25,810 bases of DNA from Chrysochromulina tobinii. Lineage: Eukaryota > Haptophyta > Prymnesiales > Chrysochromulinaceae. Below are positions 9,384 to 25,810 of this stretch, piece after piece (positions within the stretch are counted from its first letter, which is position 1; each line of letters opens with the position of its first letter). The stretch lies in contig JWZX01003285.1 of NCBI GenBank assembly GCA_001275005.1, positions 1 through 25,810 of the forward strand, written 5' to 3'. Position numbers and translations under genes: made by a program. Below the pieces are notes generated by a model. That model worked only from the letters and a program-made list of their open reading frames with translations. It was not told the DNA's origin and did not search any database.

Positions 9384-10658
9384 ATGATTTCACAGCCAAA
9401 GTTTAAGCCTCGACACGGATCTCGGGCTCTGCCTCATGAATGTGGCCGTCGGTGGCCTCGAAAAGTGACTCGTCCGCCACGGTCACGAAGGATGTGGTTG
9501 TGTTTGCTCAAGCATTTTCTGCCGCTCGGCTTGCTGTTTGCCGTGCTACTCGGGCTCACTGTGCCACAACTTGGAGTTTTCGTCGCGAGTCTCAAGGTCG
9601 GTGACTGTGGAGTTGTGCAGACCTTCGCCGTGTGCCTCATTTTCATCATCTCGGGCCTCACGCTCAATACTGACGACATCAAGAAGGCCCTTCGCGCGTG
9701 GCCGGCCATCGTGTACGGCATCATGTCGATCAACTTTCTCACGCCGCTACTGCCGCTGCTTGTGCTCCCATTCATGCCCTTCCTTCCACACGAGTTTCAG
9801 TACGGCTTCCTGCTCTTCTGCAGCATGCCTACGACCATCAATAGCGGCGTCGCGCTGGCAGACGCGGCTGGCGGAAACTTTGCGTGTGCGCTACTGCTCA
9901 CGGTGAGCTCGAACATCATCGGCATCTTCAGCGCGCCCTTCTACCTTTCGCTGCTGCTCAGCCTAGGCGGCGGCGTGACCATCGACGCAATGCCGCTCCT
10001 TGTGAATCTGATGCTCACGCTGCTGCTGCCGCTCGTCATTGGAAAATGCGTGCGCGAGCTGAGCCCGACGGTGCGCTCGCGCGTGAAGCAGCACAAGACT
10101 TTCCTGTCCACCTTATCGTCCCTTTGCCTCATCACCGTGCCATGGATGAAGCTATCCATTTCGCAAGCAACACTCGTCGCGCTCGACGCCGGTTCCCTCT
10201 TCGCGCTGCTCGGGTGTGCGCTGCTCATTCATCTTGTCTACCTTGCGTGCAACTATGGCGTCGCGCGCCACGCGCTGCGGCTCAGCCTTGACATGCGAAA
10301 GTCGCTCGTCATCATGACGTCGCAGAAGACTCTCCCAATGGCGATGAGCGTGCTCTCCTTCTTCCCACAGAGTCTGGGCGAGCCCGGCCTGATCGCCATC
10401 CCTTGCATCATCTCACACCTGGTACAGCTCTTCGTCGACGCTTTCCTCGCTGCCAGATGGGCCCAAGTGACTGTCGACACGCCGAGCGGCCCCGTCTGTC
10501 GATGGCCCCTCGGCCGCCGAGCGCACGGTGAGGAGCGCGCAGAGGACGCGGTACAGCTCACGCGTCACGAGGCCGGTCAGGCCGCAAGTGCTTCGATCTC
10601 GAGCGAGGCAGTCTTGTGGGTCGAGGAGAAAGCAGCAGAGGGGGCCTCGGCCGTCTGA
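9384..10658 (+). CDS. SLC10A7/BASS-type (bile acid:sodium symporter family) membrane transporter
   Basis: The 424-residue product is read from the first in-frame ATG (9384). A second ATG at 9492 would start directly before the first membrane helix and is also plausible. Residues 1-36 are basic and hydrophilic and could be a targeting extension. Hydrophobic segments run from residue 42 to about 360, roughly nine to ten helices. The conserved MPTTINSGVALADAAGGN stretch (148-165) and SQKTLPMAMSVL (313-324) match the two crossover regions of the SLC10A7 / plant BASS4 / fungal Rch1 branch. The C-terminal 65 residues are hydrophilic. Family members move organic anions with sodium, or in this branch influence calcium homeostasis; the substrate here is unknown. 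The stop lies 142 bp before the channel ATG on the same strand, so the genes are tightly packed. Confidence 0.87.
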   Translation: MISQPKFKPRHGSRALPHECGRRWPRKVTRPPRSRRMWLCLLKHFLPLGLLFAVLLGLTVPQLGVFVASLKVGDCGVVQTFAVCLIFIISGLTLNTDDIKKALRAWPAIVYGIMSINFLTPLLPLLVLPFMPFLPHEFQYGFLLFCSMPTTINSGVALADAAGGNFACALLLTVSSNIIGIFSAPFYLSLLLSLGGGVTIDAMPLLVNLMLTLLLPLVIGKCVRELSPTVRSRVKQHKTFLSTLSSLCLITVPWMKLSISQATLVALDAGSLFALLGCALLIHLVYLACNYGVARHALRLSLDMRKSLVIMTSQKTLPMAMSVLSFFPQSLGEPGLIAIPCIISHLVQLFVDAFLAARWAQVTVDTPSGPVCRWPLGRRAHGEERAEDAVQLTRHEAGQAASASISSEAVLWVEEKAAEGASAV

Positions 10659-10800
10659 CGAGCTGATTGGCAATCCAATCTATACTCGAACTTGTGGCTC
10701 GTCGGAACAAAATTTTCGACGCGCTATCTTTTTGTCGACCTCCCACACACACCACACCCCCGGAAGACCGCGGAACGCGGCGCTCCTCATCGGCATTCTC
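10659..10800. promoter_or_regulatory. Short promoter/leader with paired CCAAT boxes
   Basis: This 142-bp gap separates two tandem genes. GATTGG (10665-10670) and CCAATC (10675-10680) form an inverted pair around CAAT, giving a CCAAT box on each strand about 120 bp before the channel ATG. CCAAT is the NF-Y core motif. Function is inferred from position only. Confidence 0.35.
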
Positions 10801-12720
10801 ATGGGCCCGCGGACGGCGGACGTCTATACGCCCGAGCAGCAGGCACGCCCTGGCGTCGACGAGCACAGGTACCGCGAAGTGCTGCAACCACTGCCGCCTG
10901 ACCGAGTACAGGGCCGCGAATTCACATTCAAAGATCTCGAAACCAACCAAAATGAGCAAGCGATCTTGGTGGGCATGACCTTTTACTCAGTGCATGACGT
11001 GGACCCGCAAAAGCAGTGCTTTTCAGCGGAGTTGACCGTCAAGCTGTGGTGGTGGGAAAAAGACAAGGAGAAGTGGCAAGAAGCACTGGATGATTGGAAA
11101 GATGACCGCGTGCGTCGTTTCTATGATGAGGACGGAAGAAAGAAGAACTCTCTGAAGCAGTTCAAGGTTCCAATGCTCGATTTTTTCAACCATCGGGATA
11201 TAGCGGACGTCGGCAAGCCCTTCTGCGAGGTGCGCAAAGCCTGGCCGTCAGGCTTGGTCCTGTACGAGCACCGTGTGCGCGGCACATTCAACGAGGTGTT
11301 CGAGCTCGCTCATTTTCCATACGACGTGCAGGCGCTCACGGTGCAGCTCCGGGTTAAAGAAAAGAAAGACACCGGTATGGGCCGCTACTTCGCCCTGAAT
11401 GCTGAGAAGGATTCGCACGCGCTGAAACCCAGGCTGCAACACAATGTCAAATCGTGCGAGTGGCGACTCTACAAGCCCTCTGCGCTGGCGGGCAAGTACG
11501 ATGAAACCACGGAAGAATTCCTCATCTACGAGGCATACATTTGCCTGTGGCGCCGTCACGAGTGTATGAGCTCGCGACGAACCAGAGACCAACTGCCTTG
11601 CTACTGCCTTGCCCCCTTTTGTGCCCTGCGCCCTGCCGCTTTTCTCACGAGGACGGCCTTCACATGTCACCCTTTCGTGCCACCCTTTCACACTCCAGAC
11701 TTCACATGGAACGTGCTCGCGGTGATGGGGATGATCTCAACGCTCTCGCTCGGTGTCTTTGGGGTGCCCGCATCGGACGGGGATTGCCTGGCCACGCGCT
11801 CAAGCATCGTGCTCACGCTGCTGCTCACGGCCATCGCCTTCAAGTTCGTCTTTGCTGACGCTTTGCCCAAGGTATCCTACCAGACGGTGCTCGACGGGTA
11901 TATGAACACTTGCTTCTTCTTCCTGGCTGCTGTCTTCGTCGAGAACGCGCTCATCTCGCGCTTCGGCGACATTGGCGATGCCGAAACGATCGACAATTGG
12001 TTCGCACTCACGTACATCGTGCTCTGGCTGCTGGCGAACGCGGTCTTCGTGGCCGTCGTGCGCGTGTACGTGCTTCGCGTATCGCGCATCTTGGGCGAGC
12101 CGCTCAACGAGGAGAGCGAGGTGCGCTCCCCGCTCGAGGTGCAGGGGGTCAGCATGCCGTGGCCACATAAATTCCTCGAAAGCCTGTCTCGGTCGTCGAG
12201 ATCCGGGAAAGAGGAGATGAAGGAGACGTACTGGTATGGAGACGCCTCGAAAAGCAGTACAGGCTCGGAGATGCCTCGAATTGCATTCACCAATCTCAAA
12301 GCCGAGCTGGAGCGCGCCAACGAGGCGCAGGCCACGGCGGATGAGCAACTCAAGTCACTACAGCGGGAAGTGGACTTGTTGAAGAAGGGCACCTTGTCCT
12401 TTAATCGGGACAGACCGAGCACGCCGACCCACGCCGACGGCGGCGACACCGACGCATCTTCCCCGGCCATGCGTCCACCGATGAGCGAGGGCGAGGCCCT
12501 GCTCTCGCATCGCCTCGACCAAGCGCAGCGCCAGCTTGCCATCGTGGCCCAGGTCAACGCGGCGGAGCGCGATCTGCAGCTCGCCTTGCAAATGGGCGCC
12601 GGCTCGACGAGCGCCGGAAGCCCACTGGGCGCGTCGAGGAGCTCTCCGGACGTACCAACCAGGGCAAGACAGCCAGGCTTCGCTTCGCCACCCGCATCAG
12701 TCGCCGTCTACAAAATTTGA
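10801..12720 (+). CDS. Pentameric ligand-gated ion channel homologue (Cys-loop superfamily fold) with coiled-coil tail
   Basis: Exons 10801-11563 and 11699-12720 give 594 residues. Residues 50-250 are the beta-rich ligand-binding domain, including YSVHDVDPQKQCFSAELTVKL and the FPYDVQ motif at 172-177 that follows the signature loop; the two flanking cysteines of true Cys-loop receptors are absent. After splicing, RRHEYFTWN leads into M1 (257-278). M2 and the M2-M3 loop are at 286-320, with the conserved LTLLLTAIAFKF and LPKVSYQTVLD. M3 is at 322-340 and M4 at 355-381. Such channels pass ions across a membrane when a small ligand binds. Two oddities stand out. No signal peptide follows the chosen ATG, so a 5' exon may be missing. 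A roughly 210-residue tail follows M4, with a coiled coil at 450-485 and a dispersed-repeat segment; classical members end soon after M4. Ligand and ion selectivity cannot be read with confidence. Confidence 0.88.
   Translation: MGPRTADVYTPEQQARPGVDEHRYREVLQPLPPDRVQGREFTFKDLETNQNEQAILVGMTFYSVHDVDPQKQCFSAELTVKLWWWEKDKEKWQEALDDWKDDRVRRFYDEDGRKKNSLKQFKVPMLDFFNHRDIADVGKPFCEVRKAWPSGLVLYEHRVRGTFNEVFELAHFPYDVQALTVQLRVKEKKDTGMGRYFALNAEKDSHALKPRLQHNVKSCEWRLYKPSALAGKYDETTEEFLIYEAYICLWRRHECMSSRRTRDQLPCYCLAPFCALRPAAFLTRTAFTCHPFVPPFHTPDFTWNVLAVMGMISTLSLGVFGVPASDGDCLATRSSIVLTLLLTAIAFKFVFADALPKVSYQTVLDGYMNTCFFFLAAVFVENALISRFGDIGDAETIDNWFALTYIVLWLLANAVFVAVVRVYVLRVSRILGEPLNEESEVRSPLEVQGVSMPWPHKFLESLSRSSRSGKEEMKETYWYGDASKSSTGSEMPRIAFTNLKAELERANEAQATADEQLKSLQREVDLLKKGTLSFNRDRPSTPTHADGGDTDASSPAMRPPMSEGEALLSHRLDQAQRQLAIVAQVNAAERDLQLALQMGAGSTSAGSPLGASRSSPDVPTRARQPGFASPPASVAVYKI
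11564..11698 (+). other. Spliceosomal intron, 135 bp, phase 1, in frame and stop-free
   Basis: The donor is GTATGAGC at 11564. The acceptor is a pyrimidine-rich tract ending CACTCCAG at 11698. Splicing joins T with AC to make a Tyr codon and restores the usual short link between the last beta strand and M1. The intron is 45 codons long with no in-frame stop, so a naive open reading frame runs straight through it. Confidence 0.85.
12378..12644 (+). repeat. Dispersed repeat, copy B (within the channel gene)
   Basis: Blocks 12378-12392, 12417-12449 and 12619-12644 match the DUF4336 gene at 5661-5675, 5718-5750 and 5758-5783 in the same order and on the same strand. This copy lacks an 18-bp segment present in copy A between GGCAC direct repeats, and has about 170 bp of extra sequence before the last block. 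Here it is read in sense. Confidence 0.8.
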
Positions 12721-17406: not shown

Positions 17407-17703
17407 ATCCCGTGAAACTTGTGTAATGAAACGTACCCAATATCCCAAACCTTCGACGGACAAAAGCAACCGCACGAGCAGCGCTTCAGAGCCGTGAAGT
17501 CTATCGGGAACGTACATGTATCCACGTCGCAGCGCCGCCCGCCAAGACGCTCGAAGTATTTGAAACGCGCCGTATGTTCGATGACGCGCGAGATGTGAAG
17601 TTTTTTTCTGCGATCGGCATCTTGGGCGACCCTGTACGGAACTCTTTGCCGCGTGGCATCTGGTCCTTGCGCCCCCCTTCTCCCCCCAGTCCTGTGGGCT
17701 TCC
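17407..17703. promoter_or_regulatory. Divergent promoter between PP2C and the chromatin remodeler
   Basis: These 297 bp must contain both promoters. A TACATGTA palindrome lies at 17513-17520. A long pyrimidine run ending CCCCCCAG (to 17689) could be the acceptor of a leader intron of the remodeler, whose ATG follows in a CCATGG context. No TATA-like box is convincing. Confidence 0.45.
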
Positions 17704-20700
17704 ATGGACAGCTGGGAGCCGGAGGACGAGGACGACGGCGACGGGCACCTCGCGGCCTCCTTCCCCAAGAAGAACCCGAGAGTGATCAAGGAGGACGACG
17801 GCGATGCCGAGAGCGACATGGACTCTGAGGATCAGGATCAGGAGCTGGAGCTGGCCACGCGCGGGGCGGCGAAGCGCGCACGGGCTGGGTCGTCAGCGCC
17901 GGCCGAGGCGGCCGCCGAGGCGGGCAAGGCGGCCATCATGAAGCAGGTGGAGGCTGATGCTGCCCTGGCGGCCTCGCTTGCCGATCAGCCCCCCCCTCCC
18001 AAGAAGAAGAGGTCCTCCGGCAAGCGCAAGCCGGCGGTGGTGCGCCGCACCGAGGAGGAGGCGGCCGCTGCCGCCCTGGGGGCCAATGGCGACGTGCCCC
18101 CGGAGGAGCCGCCCCACGACCTGTGTGTCAAGTGCCAGGAGTCGCACTCGTACCCGGGCAATGAGCTGCTCTTGTGCGACGGCGACGATTGCGGCTCGGC
18201 GTACCACCTGCACTGCCTGCGCCCAAAGTTGCTCGCGGTGCCCAAGGGTGACTGGTGCGTGCCACGCCCATCCGCCCTTCACGTCGCCCCACACGTCGCC
18301 CCACACGTCGGCAGTCGACGGCGCAGCCGCACGGCCGATGCGCTCCCTCACCTCATGTGTAGCCCCTGCCCCGCGCTGATCGTCGTGCGTGTCGCCGTGC
18401 GCAGGTACTGCCCTTCGTGCTCTTCGCGGCGGCGTGCCCTCGCCAGGCTCGAGGAAGACAATTCGATCGACAAGATTCTCGACGACCGGCCGCGCGCCAC
18501 GGGCGCATCTAGTGGCGGACCCGGTGGTGGACCCGGTGGCGCCTCGCATGCTGGGGTGGCGCTGCCGGCGGCGGACAAGGCCTCGGCGTCGCCGGCGAGC
18601 GTTCGCAAGCGCCTCGGCAGCCTGCAGAGCGAGTCGGACGAGCTCGAGTACCTGTGCAAGTTCAAGGGGCGTGCGCACATCCATGCTCGCTGGCTCTCTG
18701 CTGACGAGATCGTCGCCGACGGACGCCTTTCAGCACAGCGGCTGGGCAACTATGAGAAGAAGAAGCTCGCAGGCGAGCTCGACCGGTTCAACGAGCAGTG
18801 CCTGACCGTCGAGCGCGTGCTCGCCGTCGATGGCGGAGCCGGTGCTAAGCGCAAGGGTGGGCCGGACGGCGCCTTCCCTGGCGCGATCGACGCCTCGGAC
18901 GCGCTGGCAGAGGGCGGGCTCGGGACGGAGGCAAGCAGCGGCGGCGATGGCGGCGGGCCGAGCGGCGATGCCGAGCACAGCACTAGCGCGGCGGCGGGCG
19001 GCGGCGGCGGCGGTGGCGGCGGCGGCGGGCGGCGGCGTCGTTACTTCATCAAGTGGCTCAGCCTGACTTACGATATGTGTACCTGGGAGGATGAGGAAGA
19101 CGTGCCAGCCACCGCGGTGGCCGCCTTCCACCAGCGCCAGGTGGCCTTCCGCACGCGCTGCATCGAGCTGGCCAAGGCAGCCGAGGCCGGCGCGGCTCCC
19201 AGCACCAAGGCCGCCGGCAAGCGGAAGCTCGGCGCCTCCGACGGCGGCGGAGGCGGCAGTAGCACCATGGCGGTGAGCGAGCTGCCCGAAGGCGTGCTTC
19301 AAGGCGAGCGCTCCCTCCGTTCGTACCAGCTCGACGGTCTACGCTGGTTGCGCCACAACTACGCGCAGGGGCGGAGCGTCATCCTGGGCGACGAGATGGG
19401 CCTCGGGAAGACGGCACAGGCCGTGTGCATGCTGCAGTGCGTGCGCATGCTGCACAATGCCCAAGGGCCCGTACTCGTGGTCGTGCCTCTTTCCACGCTG
19501 CCGCATTGGACACGCGAACTTGCCGAGTGGACCTCGCTCGACACCGTCGTCTTCTACGGCAACAAGGACGCGCGCGCCGTCCTGGTGCAGTACGAGTGGG
19601 GCTTCCCGCCCTCGGGCGTCGAAGGCGGCGGGCGCGGCGGCGGCGGCGGCGGGCGCGGCGGCCGTCGTCCGACGCCGAAGCAGCTGCCCAAGTTCGACGT
19701 GTGTGTCACGACCTATGAGATGCTCACGGCGAACCTCGAGGTGCTCAAGCCTGTGCGCTGGGAGTACATGATCGTCGACGAGGCGCACCGTCTCAAGAAC
19801 CGCGATGCGAAGGCACTGCTCGCGCTGCGTGAGCTCGACTGCCCCGTGAAGCTCGCGCTCACGGGCACGCCGCTCCAAAATCACGTGGCTGAACTCTGGT
19901 CGATGCTCAACTTCCTCGAGCCCGACACCTTCGAGGAGCTCGACGACTTTCTCGATCAGTACGGCGACATGCAGAGTGCGGCGCAGGTGCAGGGGCTCAC
20001 CGAGGTGCTTCGGCCGTACCTGCTGCGCCGTACCAAGGCGGATGTCGACCTCGGGCTCACTCCGATGGAAGAGACCCTCATCCGCGTCGAGATCACCAAC
20101 TTCCAAAAGCGCTGCTACCGCGCGATCCTCGAGCGGAACCGCTCCGTGCTCCTGCGTGGCTCGGAAGCCTCGGGCGCCGGCCCGTCGTTCAACAACGTGT
20201 CGATGCAGCTGCGCCACTGCTGCAACCACCCGTTCCTCATCAAGGGTGTGGTCGAGGCGGAGGGGCTCGAGGGCGCCGATAACGCCACGTGGCTCGACAA
20301 CCTGATCGCCGCCTCGGGCAAGATGCTGCTGCTCGACAAGCTCCTGCCGCACCTGCGCGAGCAGGGGCACCGTGTGCTCCTCTTCTCGCAGTTCACGATG
20401 CTCCTCGACCTGATCGAGGAGTACGTCGAGCTGCGAGGCTTCAGCTACGAGCGCCTGGACGGGTCGGTGACTGGCGACAAGCGGCAGGCTGCCATCGACC
20501 GCTACTGCGCGCCGGACTCGGATACCTTTCTCTTCCTGCTGGGCACGCGCGCGGGCGGCGTGGGCATCAACCTGACGGCCGCCGACACGGTCATCATCTA
20601 CGATCCCGACTGGAACCCGCAGAACGATCTGCAGGCCCAGGCGCGCTGCCATCGCATCGGCCAGACCAAGCTCGTGCGCATCTACCGGCTGGTGACGCGA

Positions 20701-23700
20701 GATACGTACGAGATGCACCTCCTCGATGCGGCCAACCAGAAGCTCGGCCTCGAGCACGCGGTCATCGGACACGGCTCGTACCACAATATCGAGAAGGGCG
20801 AAGACGCCGCCGGCGACGACGCGCTCACCCTGGGTGGCGGGCGCAAAAAAGGCATGCCGTTCAAGGCTGCCGAGGTAGAGGAGCTGCTCAAACACGGCGC
20901 CCAAAAGCTCTTTACGCAGGAGCACGACGATGAGATCGCGCGCTTCAGCGCCGAGTCGATCGAGCAGATCCTACAGCGCTGCGCCACGACCAAGACCGCA
21001 AACGAGGCGGAGAAGGGCCAGAGCGGCGGCGTCTTCTCGCAGGCGTCGTTCAGGGCGGATGACGAGGGCGAGGCAATGGACTTGCACGATCCCGACTTTT
21101 GGGAGAAGATGCTCGGCGCCGAGGCTGAGGCCGAGGACGAGGGCGAGGAGGACGGCTTCGGCATCCGGGAGACCATGAGCGGCGGCATGAGCCGTTTCTC
21201 GCAGCGCAACTCTCAGGCGCCCGACCGTCTGGCGAACTCGCTGCTCGACCTGGGCGTCAAGCCCGAGAAGAAGGAGAAGAAGGAGGAGAAGGAGAAGAAG
21301 GAGAAGAAGGAAAAGAAGGAGAAGAAGGAGAAGGAGGAAGAGGAGGAGGGCGATGAGTTCCAGCAGATCACGTGGACCAAGGCACAGCTACATGCGACGC
21401 TGGCGGGGATCTTTAGCCTCGGGTACCACCGCACGCCGCTCATCAAGGCGCGCTACCCGTCGCTCGCCCAACGGTCGCTCGAGATGGTGCACGAGCTCAT
21501 CGACTACACGTGCTCGCTCTCGATGGCTCTCTTGCGCTTTGCCGCCCAGGCAGAAGCAGACGCCAAGGCGAAGGCGAAGAGGGCCCTGCGCGCGCCTGCA
21601 GAGGGGGGCGCAGCCGGGGGCGCGGCCGGCGCCGAAACCGGCCCCGAAACCGGCGCCGACGCCGGAACCACCGAAGCGGGCGCCGCGGCGGCAGAGGGTG
21701 GGGAAGGCGCTGCGGCTTTGGACACGGCCGCCGCCGCTGCTGCTGCGAGCGCACAGAGCATGCCGGCCGAGGGAGCCGAGGGGGCGGGGGCGATCCGGAG
21801 TCGGCCCGGGTCGGCGGCTGGCGCCATAAACGACGAGTACATTGTTGACGATGCGGCCGATCGCGAGAACGACGGGGCGGCAGCTACGCCCGCGGCCGAG
21901 GACGGCGACGACGATGCGTCTATGGACGAGGAGCCCGACCGCTTTCACGAGTATGAGGCGAGGCTGTGGCACTACCTGCAGGAGGGACGCCCGCCCATGC
22001 CCGGCCAGCCGCTGACCGATGCGCCGACGATCAAGCCGCTGCCGATGGCGCTGGCGCAGTGGTTCTCGCAACGGGTCGAGGGCAAGGCAGCCCAGATGAT
22101 CACGTGTCTACTCGACCTGCGCCGTCTACGGCAAGCCGTCGAGGCCGCGGCAAGCTTCGCGGAGTTCGAGGCACCCAAGCTGCCGTCGCGCCTGGGTAAG
22201 CCCGCCCTGCTCCATCGGATGAAGTGGGAGGATATCCCGCCCGACTCGGTCTTCTACAAGCCTCCCGAGTTCTGGCAGCCGCGGCTGATGGTGCCGCTCG
22301 ACACGGCGCCATACGACCCCTCGGATGCGCGCGCAGAGGGAGCGTCGGCTCTGGAGGGCAAGGAAGCGGGCGAATCGCCGTTGTCGAAGGATGGCGGGCT
22401 TGCGGAGGACGCGATGGATGTGGACGAAGCCGACGCAGCAATGGGCGCGGAGGCACCAGAGGCCATGGAGGAAGCGGAGCTAGCAGCGGAGGTGAAGGAG
22501 GAGGCTGAGCCCATGGTGACGACGAACTCGCCGCCGCCGGCTGATGGTGAAAGGCAGGAGGAGGCTGCAGCGGAGGCGGCGGCGGAGGCGGCAGAGGCGG
22601 CGGAGGAGGAGGCAGAGGAGGCGGCGGAGGAGGCGGCGGAGGCAGCGCTGGCGGCGGCGGAGGCGGCAGCGGAGACGGCGGAGGCAGCTGAGGAGGAGGA
22701 GGCGGAGGCAGCGGAGGAGGCAGGAGAGGATGCGGCAGAAGAGGCGGAGGAGGAGGCGGCAGCGGCGGAGGAGGAGAGGGCGGCGGCCTCTGGTGCAGGC
22801 CCCTCTGGTAGTATGGAGGGCGTGTGCATACCAATCAGCGCGTGCGCCAGCTCACTTGTGGACGAAATGTACAAGGCCGCCGTCGAAACTGGCGGCGCGA
22901 CTTCGAGCAACGGATCGCCTAGCGCTGCGCAACGCACCAAAAAGGGACCGTGCACTTGCGTCGGCTGCACGCGCCCCGACTGCGGCGACTGCCTTTGCTG
23001 CCGTGACATGCCCAAATTTGGCGGGCCTGGGCTGCGCCGCTCGCGCTGCGCCAACCGCAAGTGCATTGCGCCAAAAGAGCCAAAGCCGCCCAAAGAGCCA
23101 AAGGCCCCGAAGGAGCCAAAACCCCCGAAGGAGCCGAAACTGCCCAAGGAGCCGAAACCGCCCAAGGAGCCGAAACCGCTTAAGGAGCCAAAACCCCTTA
23201 AGGAGCCAAAACCGCCCAAGGAGCCCAAGGAGAGGAAATCGCGGGGGAAACCGAAAGCAGCCGTGTCGGCGACCGCGGCGGCGGCGTCTGCGGTGGCAGC
23301 CGAAGATTGCCATGCGAAGGAGGGCGAAGCCGCCGCCGATGGCGTGAATAGCCCACTGCCAGCTGCGGCCGAGGATGAAGAGATGGCCAAAGGCGAGGGC
23401 GTCGGCGCCGGCGAGAGCGGCACGACGTCGGTGGGTGCAAACGGTGCGGCGGCGGCGCTGAAGCCGTTAAAAAGAGCCGCCTTGGGCACCGTTGTGACTC
23501 GAAAATCTGCGCCGCCACCGCCACGGCCACCACCCCGGCCGCCCCCGCCCCCGAGGGCGCCTGAGCTCGAGTGGACGTATCTCGAGGACCGCGAGCTGCT
23601 GCTGGGCGTGTATAAGCACGGCTTTGGCTCGTTCGAGGCGTATTTCGATGACCCCGAGCTCGTGCGCTTGCGCGCACTCAAGCTGATCAAACCGAAGCCT

Positions 23701-25810
23701 TTCAAGGATGGCGAGGAGGGAGGCAAGAAGGAGGCCAAGGGAGTGAAAAAGGAGGAAGACGAGGGCGACGAGGAGGGTCATGGCGGTGGTGGCGCCAATG
23801 TCAAGCAGGATGACGAGGGCGAAGAGTCCAAGGTGAAGACCGAGGGCGAGGCGGCACAGCACCTAGAGGGCAGCACCACCCCCCCTCCTGCAAAGGCCGA
23901 CGAGGGCGTCGACGAAGGCGACGAGGCCAGAGACGAGGCCAGAGATGAGGCCAAGGACGAGGGCAGGCAGGAGGGCAAGGAGGAGGGCAAGGAGGAGGGC
24001 AAGGAAGTGAAGCCCAATGGGCCGGTTTGGGTAGCGCACGTCGACCTTCGCTCGATCGCCGCGCGCGTGAAGCATTTGATCTACGCGCTGCCCGTGCCGC
24101 CCTCAAACCCAAATGCTCTGCCCGAGCCGGACGAGGACGAGGACGAGGACGAGGAGGGCGAGGGAGAGGGAGAGGGAGAAGGAGAGGGAGAGCAAAAGCC
24201 CGTCAAGGCGCCCAAACCGGCCCGGCGTGTGCTGTGCACCAAGGAGGATGAGGCGTTCGTGATGACGCTCTACCCGCCCGGCATCGATAAGGAGCGGATG
24301 ACGGCCCTAGCGCTCGCAACGGCGCCTCAAGACCCCCTGATGCCGCGCCAGCATGGCGATGGGTTGCGCCATCGAGCTCCCGTTCTCACCATGGAGCAGC
24401 GCGCGGCGCGCGAAGCCGAGCGCGTCAAGGAGCGCGAGGCGAAGCTCGAGGCGAAGCGGCTCGAACAGGAGGCGAAGGCGGAGGAGCGTGCGCAGGAGCG
24501 CGCGAAGGCCAAGGAGGCCAAGGAGGAGGCTGAGCGCGAAAAGCGCGAGAAGCGGCAGGAGACGCTCGCGCGGGAAAAGGAGGAGCGCGAGAACAAGAAG
24601 ATCAAGGAGGAGGTGACCAAGTGCATGGATGCAATCTTCAAGAAGCTCGAGAGCCTTGCCAAGCGCGAGGAGAAGGTGGCCGCCATCCAAAGCCGCAAGC
24701 GACCGCTCGTGAATCGCGCCGCCTCGGGCGCGGACGGCGCGGACGGCGCGCCGGCGGCGGCTGGTGCGGGGGTGCCCAAGAAAGCCAAGGGCGGCACGGC
24801 CGCCCCCAAGTCGCCCACATCCACCGCCTCGTCGCCGCCTGCGTACGTCTATGCAGGGCTCTCCCTCGAGGGCGTTACGGGCGTGCATGTGAGCCTCACG
24901 CTGAGTGTCGGCGTCGTCCCGGGCTTGGGCGGCGCGAACGGCGTCTCGACGTCCGCGCCGCCCGTGCCGCCCGTTTCTCTCCAGCAGGGCTTCCACAGCT
25001 TGCTCTCAGAGTACAACCACGCGTCCGAGACAGAGGTGCATTCGCCCACACACCGGTGGGTCCACACCCTTTCCGGCATTGAGCGCTCCCTGCAGCTGGC
25101 ACTCGGCCATAAGCTCGCCGTGCGCTCGTCCATGGGCATCGGTAAGTGGGCTCGCGTGCCGTGGGTTTCGATCTGCGATCCAGCGCAGACCACCTCCTCC
25201 GGTCTGTACGTGCAGTACCTCCTCCAGGCGGACGTCGCGGGGGTCTACCTGTGCCTCGCACAAGGCACGAACAAGCTGCGCGCTGCCGTGGGCCCCGCGG
25301 CCGCCAACGTGCACATCGGCAACATCGCTTCCTTTGTGCGGGATCGCTGCCGGCGCGCGCTCGGCGACCGCGCACGCACCTCCGGCTTCGACCTGCTGGG
25401 CCGTATCGACCTTCGCGCTCCCAAAGGGCATGGCGCCCCTTATGAAATGGGGTCGATCGTAGCTCGCTACTACCCGCGTGACGAGCTGCCCGAGGAGAGC
25501 GAGCTGTGGACGCACCTGCGCCAGCTCCTGCAGGCCTACCAGGCGGTGACCCAGGATCCCGCCTACGTCGCCTTCGCGCAGCAGATCGCCGACAAGACGG
25601 CGGCGGCGCAGCGGGCGGCGCAGCAGCACTCGGCCGCGACTGCCCAACTGCTCGCCGCGCAGGCGCAAGCCGCCGCGCAGGCGCAAGCCGCCGCGCAGGC
25701 GCAGGGCGCCGCGCCGGCGCAAGCCGCGCATGCGGCGAGTATCAGTGGCTACCCGCCGTCCTCGCTACCTGCCGGTAGCAATGGCGGCGGCGGCAGGGGT
25801 CAGAATGCTG
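17704..25810 (+). CDS. CHD-type chromatin remodeler with PHD, chromodomains, SNF2 motor, CXXC finger, SANT-like and DUF3578/MrcB_N domains (3' end outside window)
   Basis: Exons 17704-18254 and 18405 to the window end give at least 2652 residues with no stop. Domains: PHD finger (about 139-189, ending WYCPSC across the splice); chromodomain 1 (262-310); chromodomain 2 (316-430), split by a Gly-rich insert; SNF2 ATPase (487-780) with GDEMGLGKT (512-520) and DEAH (642-645); helicase C (823-945) with CHRIGQ. A CXXC zinc finger (1700-1737) has eight ligand cysteines and DMPKFGGPG. It is followed by a PxKEPK repeat (1739-1797), a SANT-like segment (1904-1945), acidic runs, a charged coiled coil (2180-2280) and a DUF3578/MrcB_N-like domain (2374-2570) with GIGKWARVPWVSI. 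CHD proteins slide nucleosomes using ATP in the nucleus. PHD and chromodomains read histone tails, and CXXC fingers bind unmethylated CpG. DUF3578 belongs to McrB-like restriction subunits. Nearest relatives are Mi-2/CHD3-5-like, but the last two DNA readers are not part of those. Confidence 0.93.
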   Translation, partial: MDSWEPEDEDDGDGHLAASFPKKNPRVIKEDDGDAESDMDSEDQDQELELATRGAAKRARAGSSAPAEAAAEAGKAAIMKQVEADAALAASLADQPPPPKKKRSSGKRKPAVVRRTEEEAAAAALGANGDVPPEEPPHDLCVKCQESHSYPGNELLLCDGDDCGSAYHLHCLRPKLLAVPKGDWCVPRPSALHVAPHVAPHVGSRRRSRTADALPHLMCSPCPALIVVRVAVRRYCPSCSSRRRALARLEEDNSIDKILDDRPRATGASSGGPGGGPGGASHAGVALPAADKASASPASVRKRLGSLQSESDELEYLCKFKGRAHIHARWLSADEIVADGRLSAQRLGNYEKKKLAGELDRFNEQCLTVERVLAVDGGAGAKRKGGPDGAFPGAIDASDALAEGGLGTEASSGGDGGGPSGDAEHSTSAAAGGGGGGGGGGGRRRRYFIKWLSLTYDMCTWEDEEDVPATAVAAFHQRQVAFRTRCIELAKAAEAGAAPSTKAAGKRKLGASDGGGGGSSTMAVSELPEGVLQGERSLRSYQLDGLRWLRHNYAQGRSVILGDEMGLGKTAQAVCMLQCVRMLHNAQGPVLVVVPLSTLPHWTRELAEWTSLDTVVFYGNKDARAVLVQYEWGFPPSGVEGGGRGGGGGGRGGRRPTPKQLPKFDVCVTTYEMLTANLEVLKPVRWEYMIVDEAHRLKNRDAKALLALRELDCPVKLALTGTPLQNHVAELWSMLNFLEPDTFEELDDFLDQYGDMQSAAQVQGLTEVLRPYLLRRTKADVDLGLTPMEETLIRVEITNFQKRCYRAILERNRSVLLRGSEASGAGPSFNNVSMQLRHCCNHPFLIKGVVEAEGLEGADNATWLDNLIAASGKMLLLDKLLPHLREQGHRVLLFSQFTMLLDLIEEYVELRGFSYERLDGSVTGDKRQAAIDRYCAPDSDTFLFLLGTRAGGVGINLTAADTVIIYDPDWNPQNDLQAQARCHRIGQTKLVRIYRLVTRDTYEMHLLDAANQKLGLEHAVIGHGSYHNIEKGEDAAGDDALTLGGGRKKGMPFKAAEVEELLKHGAQKLFTQEHDDEIARFSAESIEQILQRCATTKTANEAEKGQSGGVFSQASFRADDEGEAMDLHDPDFWEKMLGAEAEAEDEGEEDGFGIRETMSGGMSRFSQRNSQAPDRLANSLLDLGVKPEKKEKKEEKEKKEKKEKKEKKEKEEEEEGDEFQQITWTKAQLHATLAGIFSLGYHRTPLIKARYPSLAQRSLEMVHELIDYTCSLSMALLRFAAQAEADAKAKAKRALRAPAEGGAAGGAAGAETGPETGADAGTTEAGAAAAEGGEGAAALDTAAAAAAASAQSMPAEGAEGAGAIRSRPGSAAGAINDEYIVDDAADRENDGAAATPAAEDGDDDASMDEEPDRFHEYEARLWHYLQEGRPPMPGQPLTDAPTIKPLPMALAQWFSQRVEGKAAQMITCLLDLRRLRQAVEAAASFAEFEAPKLPSRLGKPALLHRMKWEDIPPDSVFYKPPEFWQPRLMVPLDTAPYDPSDARAEGASALEGKEAGESPLSKDGGLAEDAMDVDEADAAMGAEAPEAMEEAELAAEVKEEAEPMVTTNSPPPADGERQEEAAAEAAAEAAEAAEEEAEEAAEEAAEAALAAAEAAAETAEAAEEEEAEAAEEAGEDAAEEAEEEAAAAEEERAAASGAGPSGSMEGVCIPISACASSLVDEMYKAAVETGGATSSNGSPSAAQRTKKGPCTCVGCTRPDCGDCLCCRDMPKFGGPGLRRSRCANRKCIAPKEPKPPKEPKAPKEPKPPKEPKLPKEPKPPKEPKPLKEPKPLKEPKPPKEPKERKSRGKPKAAVSATAAAASAVAAEDCHAKEGEAAADGVNSPLPAAAEDEEMAKGEGVGAGESGTTSVGANGAAAALKPLKRAALGTVVTRKSAPPPPRPPPRPPPPPRAPELEWTYLEDRELLLGVYKHGFGSFEAYFDDPELVRLRALKLIKPKPFKDGEEGGKKEAKGVKKEEDEGDEEGHGGGGANVKQDDEGEESKVKTEGEAAQHLEGSTTPPPAKADEGVDEGDEARDEARDEAKDEGRQEGKEEGKEEGKEVKPNGPVWVAHVDLRSIAARVKHLIYALPVPPSNPNALPEPDEDEDEDEEGEGEGEGEGEGEQKPVKAPKPARRVLCTKEDEAFVMTLYPPGIDKERMTALALATAPQDPLMPRQHGDGLRHRAPVLTMEQRAAREAERVKEREAKLEAKRLEQEAKAEERAQERAKAKEAKEEAEREKREKRQETLAREKEERENKKIKEEVTKCMDAIFKKLESLAKREEKVAAIQSRKRPLVNRAASGADGADGAPAAAGAGVPKKAKGGTAAPKSPTSTASSPPAYVYAGLSLEGVTGVHVSLTLSVGVVPGLGGANGVSTSAPPVPPVSLQQGFHSLLSEYNHASETEVHSPTHRWVHTLSGIERSLQLALGHKLAVRSSMGIGKWARVPWVSICDPAQTTSSGLYVQYLLQADVAGVYLCLAQGTNKLRAAVGPAAANVHIGNIASFVRDRCRRALGDRARTSGFDLLGRIDLRAPKGHGAPYEMGSIVARYYPRDELPEESELWTHLRQLLQAYQAVTQDPAYVAFAQQIADKTAAAQRAAQQHSAATAQLLAAQAQAAAQAQAAAQAQGAAPAQAAHAASISGYPPSSLPAGSNGGGGRGQNA
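18255..18404 (+). other. Spliceosomal intron, 150 bp, in frame and stop-free, inside the PHD finger
   Basis: The donor is GTGCGTGCC at 18255 and the acceptor GTGCGCAG ends at 18404. Joining TG with G restores a Trp codon and the PHD ending WYCPSC. The length is exactly 50 codons with no in-frame stop. It contains a short tandem repeat of CACGTCGCCC-type words at 18280-18310. Confidence 0.88.
21262..21348 (+). repeat. Lys/Glu-rich low-complexity run
   Basis: Repeated AAGGAG and GAGAAG triplets encode a KEKKEKK run and an acidic end, between the helicase part and a helical segment of unknown type in the remodeler. Confidence 0.85.
22552..22788 (+). repeat. Glu/Ala-rich purine-biased tract
   Basis: About 240 bp of imperfect GCGGCGGAGG-type repeats encode an uninterrupted Glu/Ala stretch, likely a long helix or disordered acidic region, just before the CXXC finger. 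Confidence 0.85.
22951..23064 (+). other. CXXC zinc-finger coding segment
   Basis: Thirty-eight codons hold cysteines at relative positions 1, 3, 6, 11, 14, 16, 17, 33 and 38, and the KFGG motif. This fits the CXXC domain of KDM2, CFP1, MLL and DNMT1, except that the first cysteine spacing is one residue shorter. DNA binding to unmethylated CpG is the family role. Confidence 0.85.
23068..23235 (+). repeat. 18-bp tandem repeat (PxKEPK), about nine copies
   Basis: Imperfect 18-bp units each encode Pro-x-Lys-Glu-Pro-Lys directly after the CXXC finger. The result is a long Pro/Lys linker that is likely extended and basic enough to touch DNA. Confidence 0.9.
24973..25560 (+). other. DUF3578/MrcB_N-like domain coding segment
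   Basis: About 195 codons show the family's order of motifs: GIGKWARVPWVSI, then TTSSGLYVQYLLQADVAGVY, LCLAQGT, an inner helix SFVRDRCRRAL, YEMGSIVARYYPRDELP and a final LLQAYQAV helix. The pattern is clear over the whole domain. The family sits at the N-terminus of McrB-like GTPases of modification-dependent restriction. Confidence 0.8.
25663..25716 (+). repeat. 18-bp tandem repeat (Gln/Ala coding)
   Basis: Two exact copies and one diverged copy of GCGCAAGCCGCCGCGCAG encode an Ala/Gln run after the DUF3578-like domain of the remodeler. Confidence 0.85.

Follow-up and report, generated by a model that had tools for sequence, protein, structure and literature searches.

What couples DNA methylation to the position of nucleosomes is, to our knowledge, an open question, and a gene of the haptophyte alga Chrysochromulina tobinii raises it in a particular form: can a chromatin remodeler read cytosine modification through domains of its own chain? 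The gene lies on the forward strand of contig JWZX01003285.1 (C2126), analysed over its full length of 25,810 nucleotides (hereafter the window), in a genome of 53 Mb and 2253 contigs. Because the window is the entire contig, the 3' end of the gene is missing. The initial annotation had described one protein joining a CHD motor, a CXXC finger and a DUF3578/MrcB_N domain, and had proposed that it compares two cytosine states. We find that the CHD remodeler carrying both CXXC and MrcB_N is real and that the arrangement recurs.

The first methionine and the long frame of 2737 codons, stop-free and open up to the contig end, were borne out, and Pfam places along the encoded protein, in order, PHD, chromo, SNF2, helicase C, CXXC, CHD1-type helix-turn-helix (HTH) and MrcB_N domains (Table 1). 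The two profile matches that define the combination both exceed their cut-offs, at 109.8 bits against 25 for MrcB_N and 29.6 bits against 26.5 for CXXC. The ATP motor is intact, as had been predicted, with Walker A (DEMGLGKT), DEAH and motif VI (QAQARCHRIGQ) all present. Of the proposed tandem chromodomains, Pfam recovers the second, the first being recognised by eye only; two chromo stretches are found in a paralog on contig C2217 and in P0002, a transcript product described below, and in both of these the HTH match, below its cut-off in the window protein, lies over it. Between HTH and MrcB_N runs a charged, in part helix-like linker region; a charged stretch of 115-200 residues occupies this place in all eight proteins measured (the window protein included, and P0017/P0018 being near copies), within an HTH-to-MrcB_N gap of 268-447 residues. 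The best PDB sequence match is human CHD4 (5.8e-139), followed by CHD1 (4.7e-127). PHD, chromo and SNF2 motor, with a putative second chromodomain and a putative CHD1-type HTH, are shared with the CHD1 and CHD3-4 remodelers, from which the window protein differs by the addition of CXXC and MrcB_N, and its relatives by an Agenet, SGF29-tudor or bromodomain C-terminus. By analogy with their families, the PHD finger and chromodomains would recognise histone tails, the SNF2 motor would move nucleosomes along DNA, and the HTH would contact linker DNA as its CHD1 counterpart does.

The suggested link to modified cytosine now goes beyond a name match, binding itself being predicted only. Structure comparison places the fold of the McrB DNA-binding domain in the MrcB_N part, and sequence alignment identifies equivalents of the methyl-contacting Tyr64 and Leu68. 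The window protein and nearly all relatives retain both, along with W49, and the L68 position is leucine, as in E. coli McrB, in 37 of 37 aligned rows, part of which were chosen for it: 17 genome-contig rows were picked by a pattern containing the pocket Tyr and Leu, and three virus-collection rows by patterns holding Leu or Trp, so that pocket agreement in these rows is circular. The rows not picked in this way are 14 algal domains (P0019 among them a near copy of the paralog domain), P0015, P0016 and E. coli McrB. P0009, P0010, P0012, P0014 and P0018, which nearly duplicate retained rows or are shortened forms of them, were left out of this count and of the tree (36 rows, without E. coli McrB); the frame of P0014 leaves the MrcB_N family midway. 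The domain thus resembles the N-terminal domain of E. coli McrB (ADAM/DUF3578) in Pfam family, fold and methyl-contact Tyr and Leu, but differs in being fused to a chromatin motor, and Pfam detected in the window protein no match to AAA_5, the McrB-type GTPase of the McrBC restriction system.

Domain searches and structure comparison show the parts and their order: histone readers and a complete SNF2 motor, then an HTH resembling that of CHD1, the charged linker and a predicted McrB-N fold with putative methyl-contact residues. On balance, we consider it probable that the gene encodes a CHD-family remodeler with an acquired, bacterial restriction-type methylcytosine reader. McrB-N bends DNA and flips a base via the minor groove and, because both should be hard to achieve on wrapped DNA, reading of the linker would be favoured. 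MrcB_N would flip a modified cytosine, most likely 5-methylcytosine (5mC), out of exposed linker DNA; the flipped base would recruit or orient the motor, and the remodeler, anchored at modified linkers or aligned by them, would place nucleosomes relative to them. More tentatively, and with doubt prevailing, a CHD spacing remodeler may measure from flipped linker methylcytosines by means of a captured bacterial McrB-type reader on a long arm, the methylation pattern then setting positions directly through one chain. A parallel is offered by CDCA7-HELLS, in which DNA methylation may be sensed by the partner of an SNF2 remodeler, as the excerpted text of that paper itself suggests (PMC10538959); there, however, sensing falls to a subunit of its own with a different zinc finger, whereas the window reader lies in the same chain and is of bacterial type.

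The presence of 5mC in the alga is plausible because its genome holds 12 DNMT matches on nine contigs and two SRA matches. Some algae, haptophytes and prasinophytes among them, carry their DNA methylation in the stretches between nucleosomes, where it is linked to nucleosome positioning, according to passages of two papers (PMC12344493, citing Huff and Zilberman 2014; PMC9998398). Among the methyltransferase frames themselves, C2140:21121-21966 and C1312:9270-10115 (L009, L010) combine a DNA methyltransferase with a below-cut-off match to a retroelement aspartyl protease, which suggests methyltransferase-carrying retroelements; on C276 (L012, L033) and C2195 (L031), DNA methylase matches lie in or beside frames with PHD-type fingers, a DNMT3-like layout.

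Several observations weigh against a built-in methylcytosine reader. The window and six sampled loci show no depletion of CpG (observed/expected 1.04-1.18, with TpG at 1.01-1.21), so dense 5mC has left no clear footprint. The DNMT frames examined include no recognisable DNMT-SNF2 fusion (DNMT5), and the linker-methylation pattern of some algae is therefore conjectural in this one. The best Foldseek hit to the domain reached E 4.4e-3, with none at or under 0.001, and two DUF1054 proteins came level or almost level in VIA Z (10.0 and 9.4). The window domain has the longest end branch among the algal rows (0.84), P0002 has His at the Tyr64 site, and no transcript of the exact window gene was seen. 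It is conceivable, in the light of some of these points, that MrcB_N binds DNA or RNA without reading any modification and serves as a general clamp on an ordinary CHD remodeler: the divergence of the window domain, with Ile at the variable Y41 site, the undepleted CpG and the DUF1054 proteins of the same fold would all agree with such a role. The retention of W49, Y64 and L68, part of the rows being pattern-picked, speaks against such a role, and we regard a plain clamp as unlikely, though deserving of serious consideration.

What, then, of the second cytosine state? The window CXXC finger is a full one, with eight cysteines and KFGG, and its closest PDB relatives are KDM2B, FBXL19 and KDM2A; it differs from the KDM2/FBXL19 fingers in a first cysteine cluster one residue shorter and in the replacement of the CpG-reading K-Q by R-S. 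The excerpted text of a review has a KQ or RQ pair reading CpG, type-2 fingers having lost it (PMC3685328). In our motif scan of the fetched loci, which cover part of the 37 zf-CXXC matches of the genome, nine of the ten other full-length fingers keep K-Q. With R-S in place of this conserved pair, reading of unmethylated CpG by the window finger is doubtful; what it contributes is probably DNA affinity, not a strict selection for unmethylated CpG. Of the two-state comparison, therefore, the methyl half stands as plausible on fold and residues, and the unmethylated half is in doubt for the window protein. For the paralog, whose second half-CXXC finger keeps R-Q, reading of unmethylated CpG is possible.

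Half-CXXC fingers are an observation in their own right. In 19 of the 37 genome matches the alignment begins at profile position 17 or later, and such fingers make up 15 of the 25 motif sites in the fetched loci, seven of them with K/R-Q (examples are C2217:38007-38090 and 33569-33652, C2008, C88 and C1087). With one cysteine cluster, KFGG and the loop, and without the first CxxCxxC, they look like a single-zinc variant of this lineage.

MrcB_N occurs at two places in the genome, the window and C2217. The paralog, on the minus strand and read in three pieces with presumed exon joins (38729-36855, 36848-34737 and 34603-30743), encodes PHD, half-CXXC, two chromo, SNF2, helicase C, HTH, second half-CXXC, MrcB_N and Agenet domains. 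Three protein searches with the MrcB_N part, in different length brackets, returned 1, 12 and 9 proteins (three of the nine already found). P0002, a 2414-residue MMETSP transcript product, carries chromo, SNF2, HTH, MrcB_N and SGF29-tudor domains, with no PHD or CXXC by Pfam; P0018 and P0021 combine CXXC, HTH, MrcB_N and Agenet, P0020 and P0022 combine SNF2, MrcB_N and Agenet, P0008 has MrcB_N with a bromodomain, and P0007 HTH with MrcB_N. Many relatives look like fragments, so that the absence of a domain from them means little. Over the searched part, P0018 and P0019 are 99% and 97% identical to the paralog and hence not independent of it; P0021 (59%), P0020 (59%) and P0022 (49%) are more distant. 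Among the search results, no protein outside this genome unites SNF2, CXXC and MrcB_N. A literature search of titles and abstract openings found, among the papers listed, no MrcB_N described in a CHD protein; most subscription papers lie outside it, so this is not proof that none is published. A further environmental protein, P0023, has MrcB_N without SNF2 or HTH by Pfam and a C-terminus that is AP2-like by eye.

In the tree, the 14 algal domains fall on one side of a branch with support 99/98. The nearest bacterial row, whose long branch is weakly supported (93/89), is a protein with AAA_5 from a Chloroflexi metagenome-assembled genome. The simplest reading would be one capture of a restriction-type reader, which then spread along with the CHD gene. 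Of ten prokaryotic or virus-collection MrcB_N frames scanned, three carry HNH, three NOV_C and two AAA_5 (one match just under cut-off), and two have MrcB_N alone; P0015 and P0016 carry HNH and NOV_C. Bacterial-type proteins such as P0015, L052 and L054 share the domain and its conserved pocket with the algal remodelers but have nuclease-type or NOV_C partners in place of SNF2. On the virus-collection contig L070, frame 788-2188 encodes an HTH-MrcB_N-HNH protein. These defence-type fusions, in eight of the ten scanned, lend some weight to the idea that the domain senses another mark (N4-methylcytosine (4mC), 5-hydroxymethylcytosine (5hmC) or N6-methyladenine (6mA)) or foreign DNA, for instance that of transposons or viruses, and silences its target by chromatin compaction, and PDB titles list E. 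coli McrB-N with 5hmC, 5-formylcytosine and 4mC DNA. Against this stand the invariant leucine at L68, in rows partly selected for it, and the many 5mC methyltransferase matches of the genome, 5mC being the mark whose writers were looked for; we judge it an improbable account.

Besides the first chromodomain, one detail of the initial description needs amending. From PHD to MrcB_N the frame is stop-free, but it does not look intron-free: without a 150-nucleotide GT..AG stretch the PHD finger scores 40 bits instead of 24.3, and the PHD of the paralog is continuous, at 46 bits. For these reasons an intron within the PHD finger is very probable. That MrcB_N or CXXC was drawn from a neighbouring gene by an assembly or gene-model error is highly improbable, since, for all that one intron is hidden in the frame, that the contig stops 262 bases past MrcB_N and that the gene is known from genomic sequence alone, a similar arrangement occurs in the paralog, the MMETSP transcript and environmental proteins.

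Table 1. Features of the remodeler gene in the window (Pfam values refer to the unspliced protein unless stated)
Feature	Position	Strand	Evidence
CHD-type remodeler gene, from its 5' end as far as the contig reaches; lacks the 3' end	17704..25810	+	Open frame 17599-25809, first Met 17704
PHD finger, split by predicted intron	18124..18450	+	PF00628, residues 176-220, E 3.3e-5, 24.3 bits unspliced (cut-off 24), 40 bits spliced
Predicted 150-nt in-frame intron, GTGCGT...GCGCAG	18255..18404	+	GT..AG ends; known from sequence alone
Chromodomain 1, approximate ends	18643..18777	+	By eye only; two chromo stretches in paralog and P0002
Chromodomain 2	19036..19137	+	PF00385, residues 480-513, E 4.6e-10
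SNF2 ATPase lobe and helicase C lobe with intact motifs	19324..20661	+	PF00176, residues 576-879, E 2.1e-72; PF00271, residues 908-1021, E 3.7e-23
Full CXXC zinc finger, KDM2-like, R-S instead of K/R-Q	22939..23064	+	PF02008, residues 1781-1822, E 7.1e-7; PDB matches KDM2B/FBXL19/KDM2A
CHD1-type HTH/SANT region	23566..23661	+	PF23588 (HTH_CHD1_Hrp3), residues 1990-2021, E 2e-5, 24.9 bits (cut-off of 27 not reached)
Linker region, 45% charged, partly helix-like	24043..24642	+	Between HTH and MrcB_N
MrcB_N (DUF3578/ADAM)	25000..25548	+	PF12102, residues 2468-2650, E 1.6e-31; fold; pocket
MrcB_N pocket equivalents	W49 at 25162, Y64 at 25207, L68 at 25219	+	Sequence alignment

The host is a photosynthetic eukaryote, as the 58 light-harvesting matches in the genome indicate. 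Two of the light-harvesting pieces matched PDB entries 9vfj and 9m4f, and one of the two matched further entries as well, which was too little to fix the lineage. Seven of the ten neighbouring frames scanned in the window match ordinary families, for example Tic22-like (plastid import), PP2C phosphatase and SBF-like transporter, and the window yielded no Rfam family at gathering score and no tRNA gene. Frame 10471-12717 matched the transmembrane region of ligand-gated ion channels (PF02932, E 8.9e-7), here in an alga.

If the CHD remodeler does carry a methylcytosine reader, a prokaryotic defence module would have been turned into a eukaryotic chromatin reader, and its motor might be steered directly by DNA methylation. 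A remodeler with such a built-in reader would then be a direct candidate for the coupling of methylation to nucleosome positioning.
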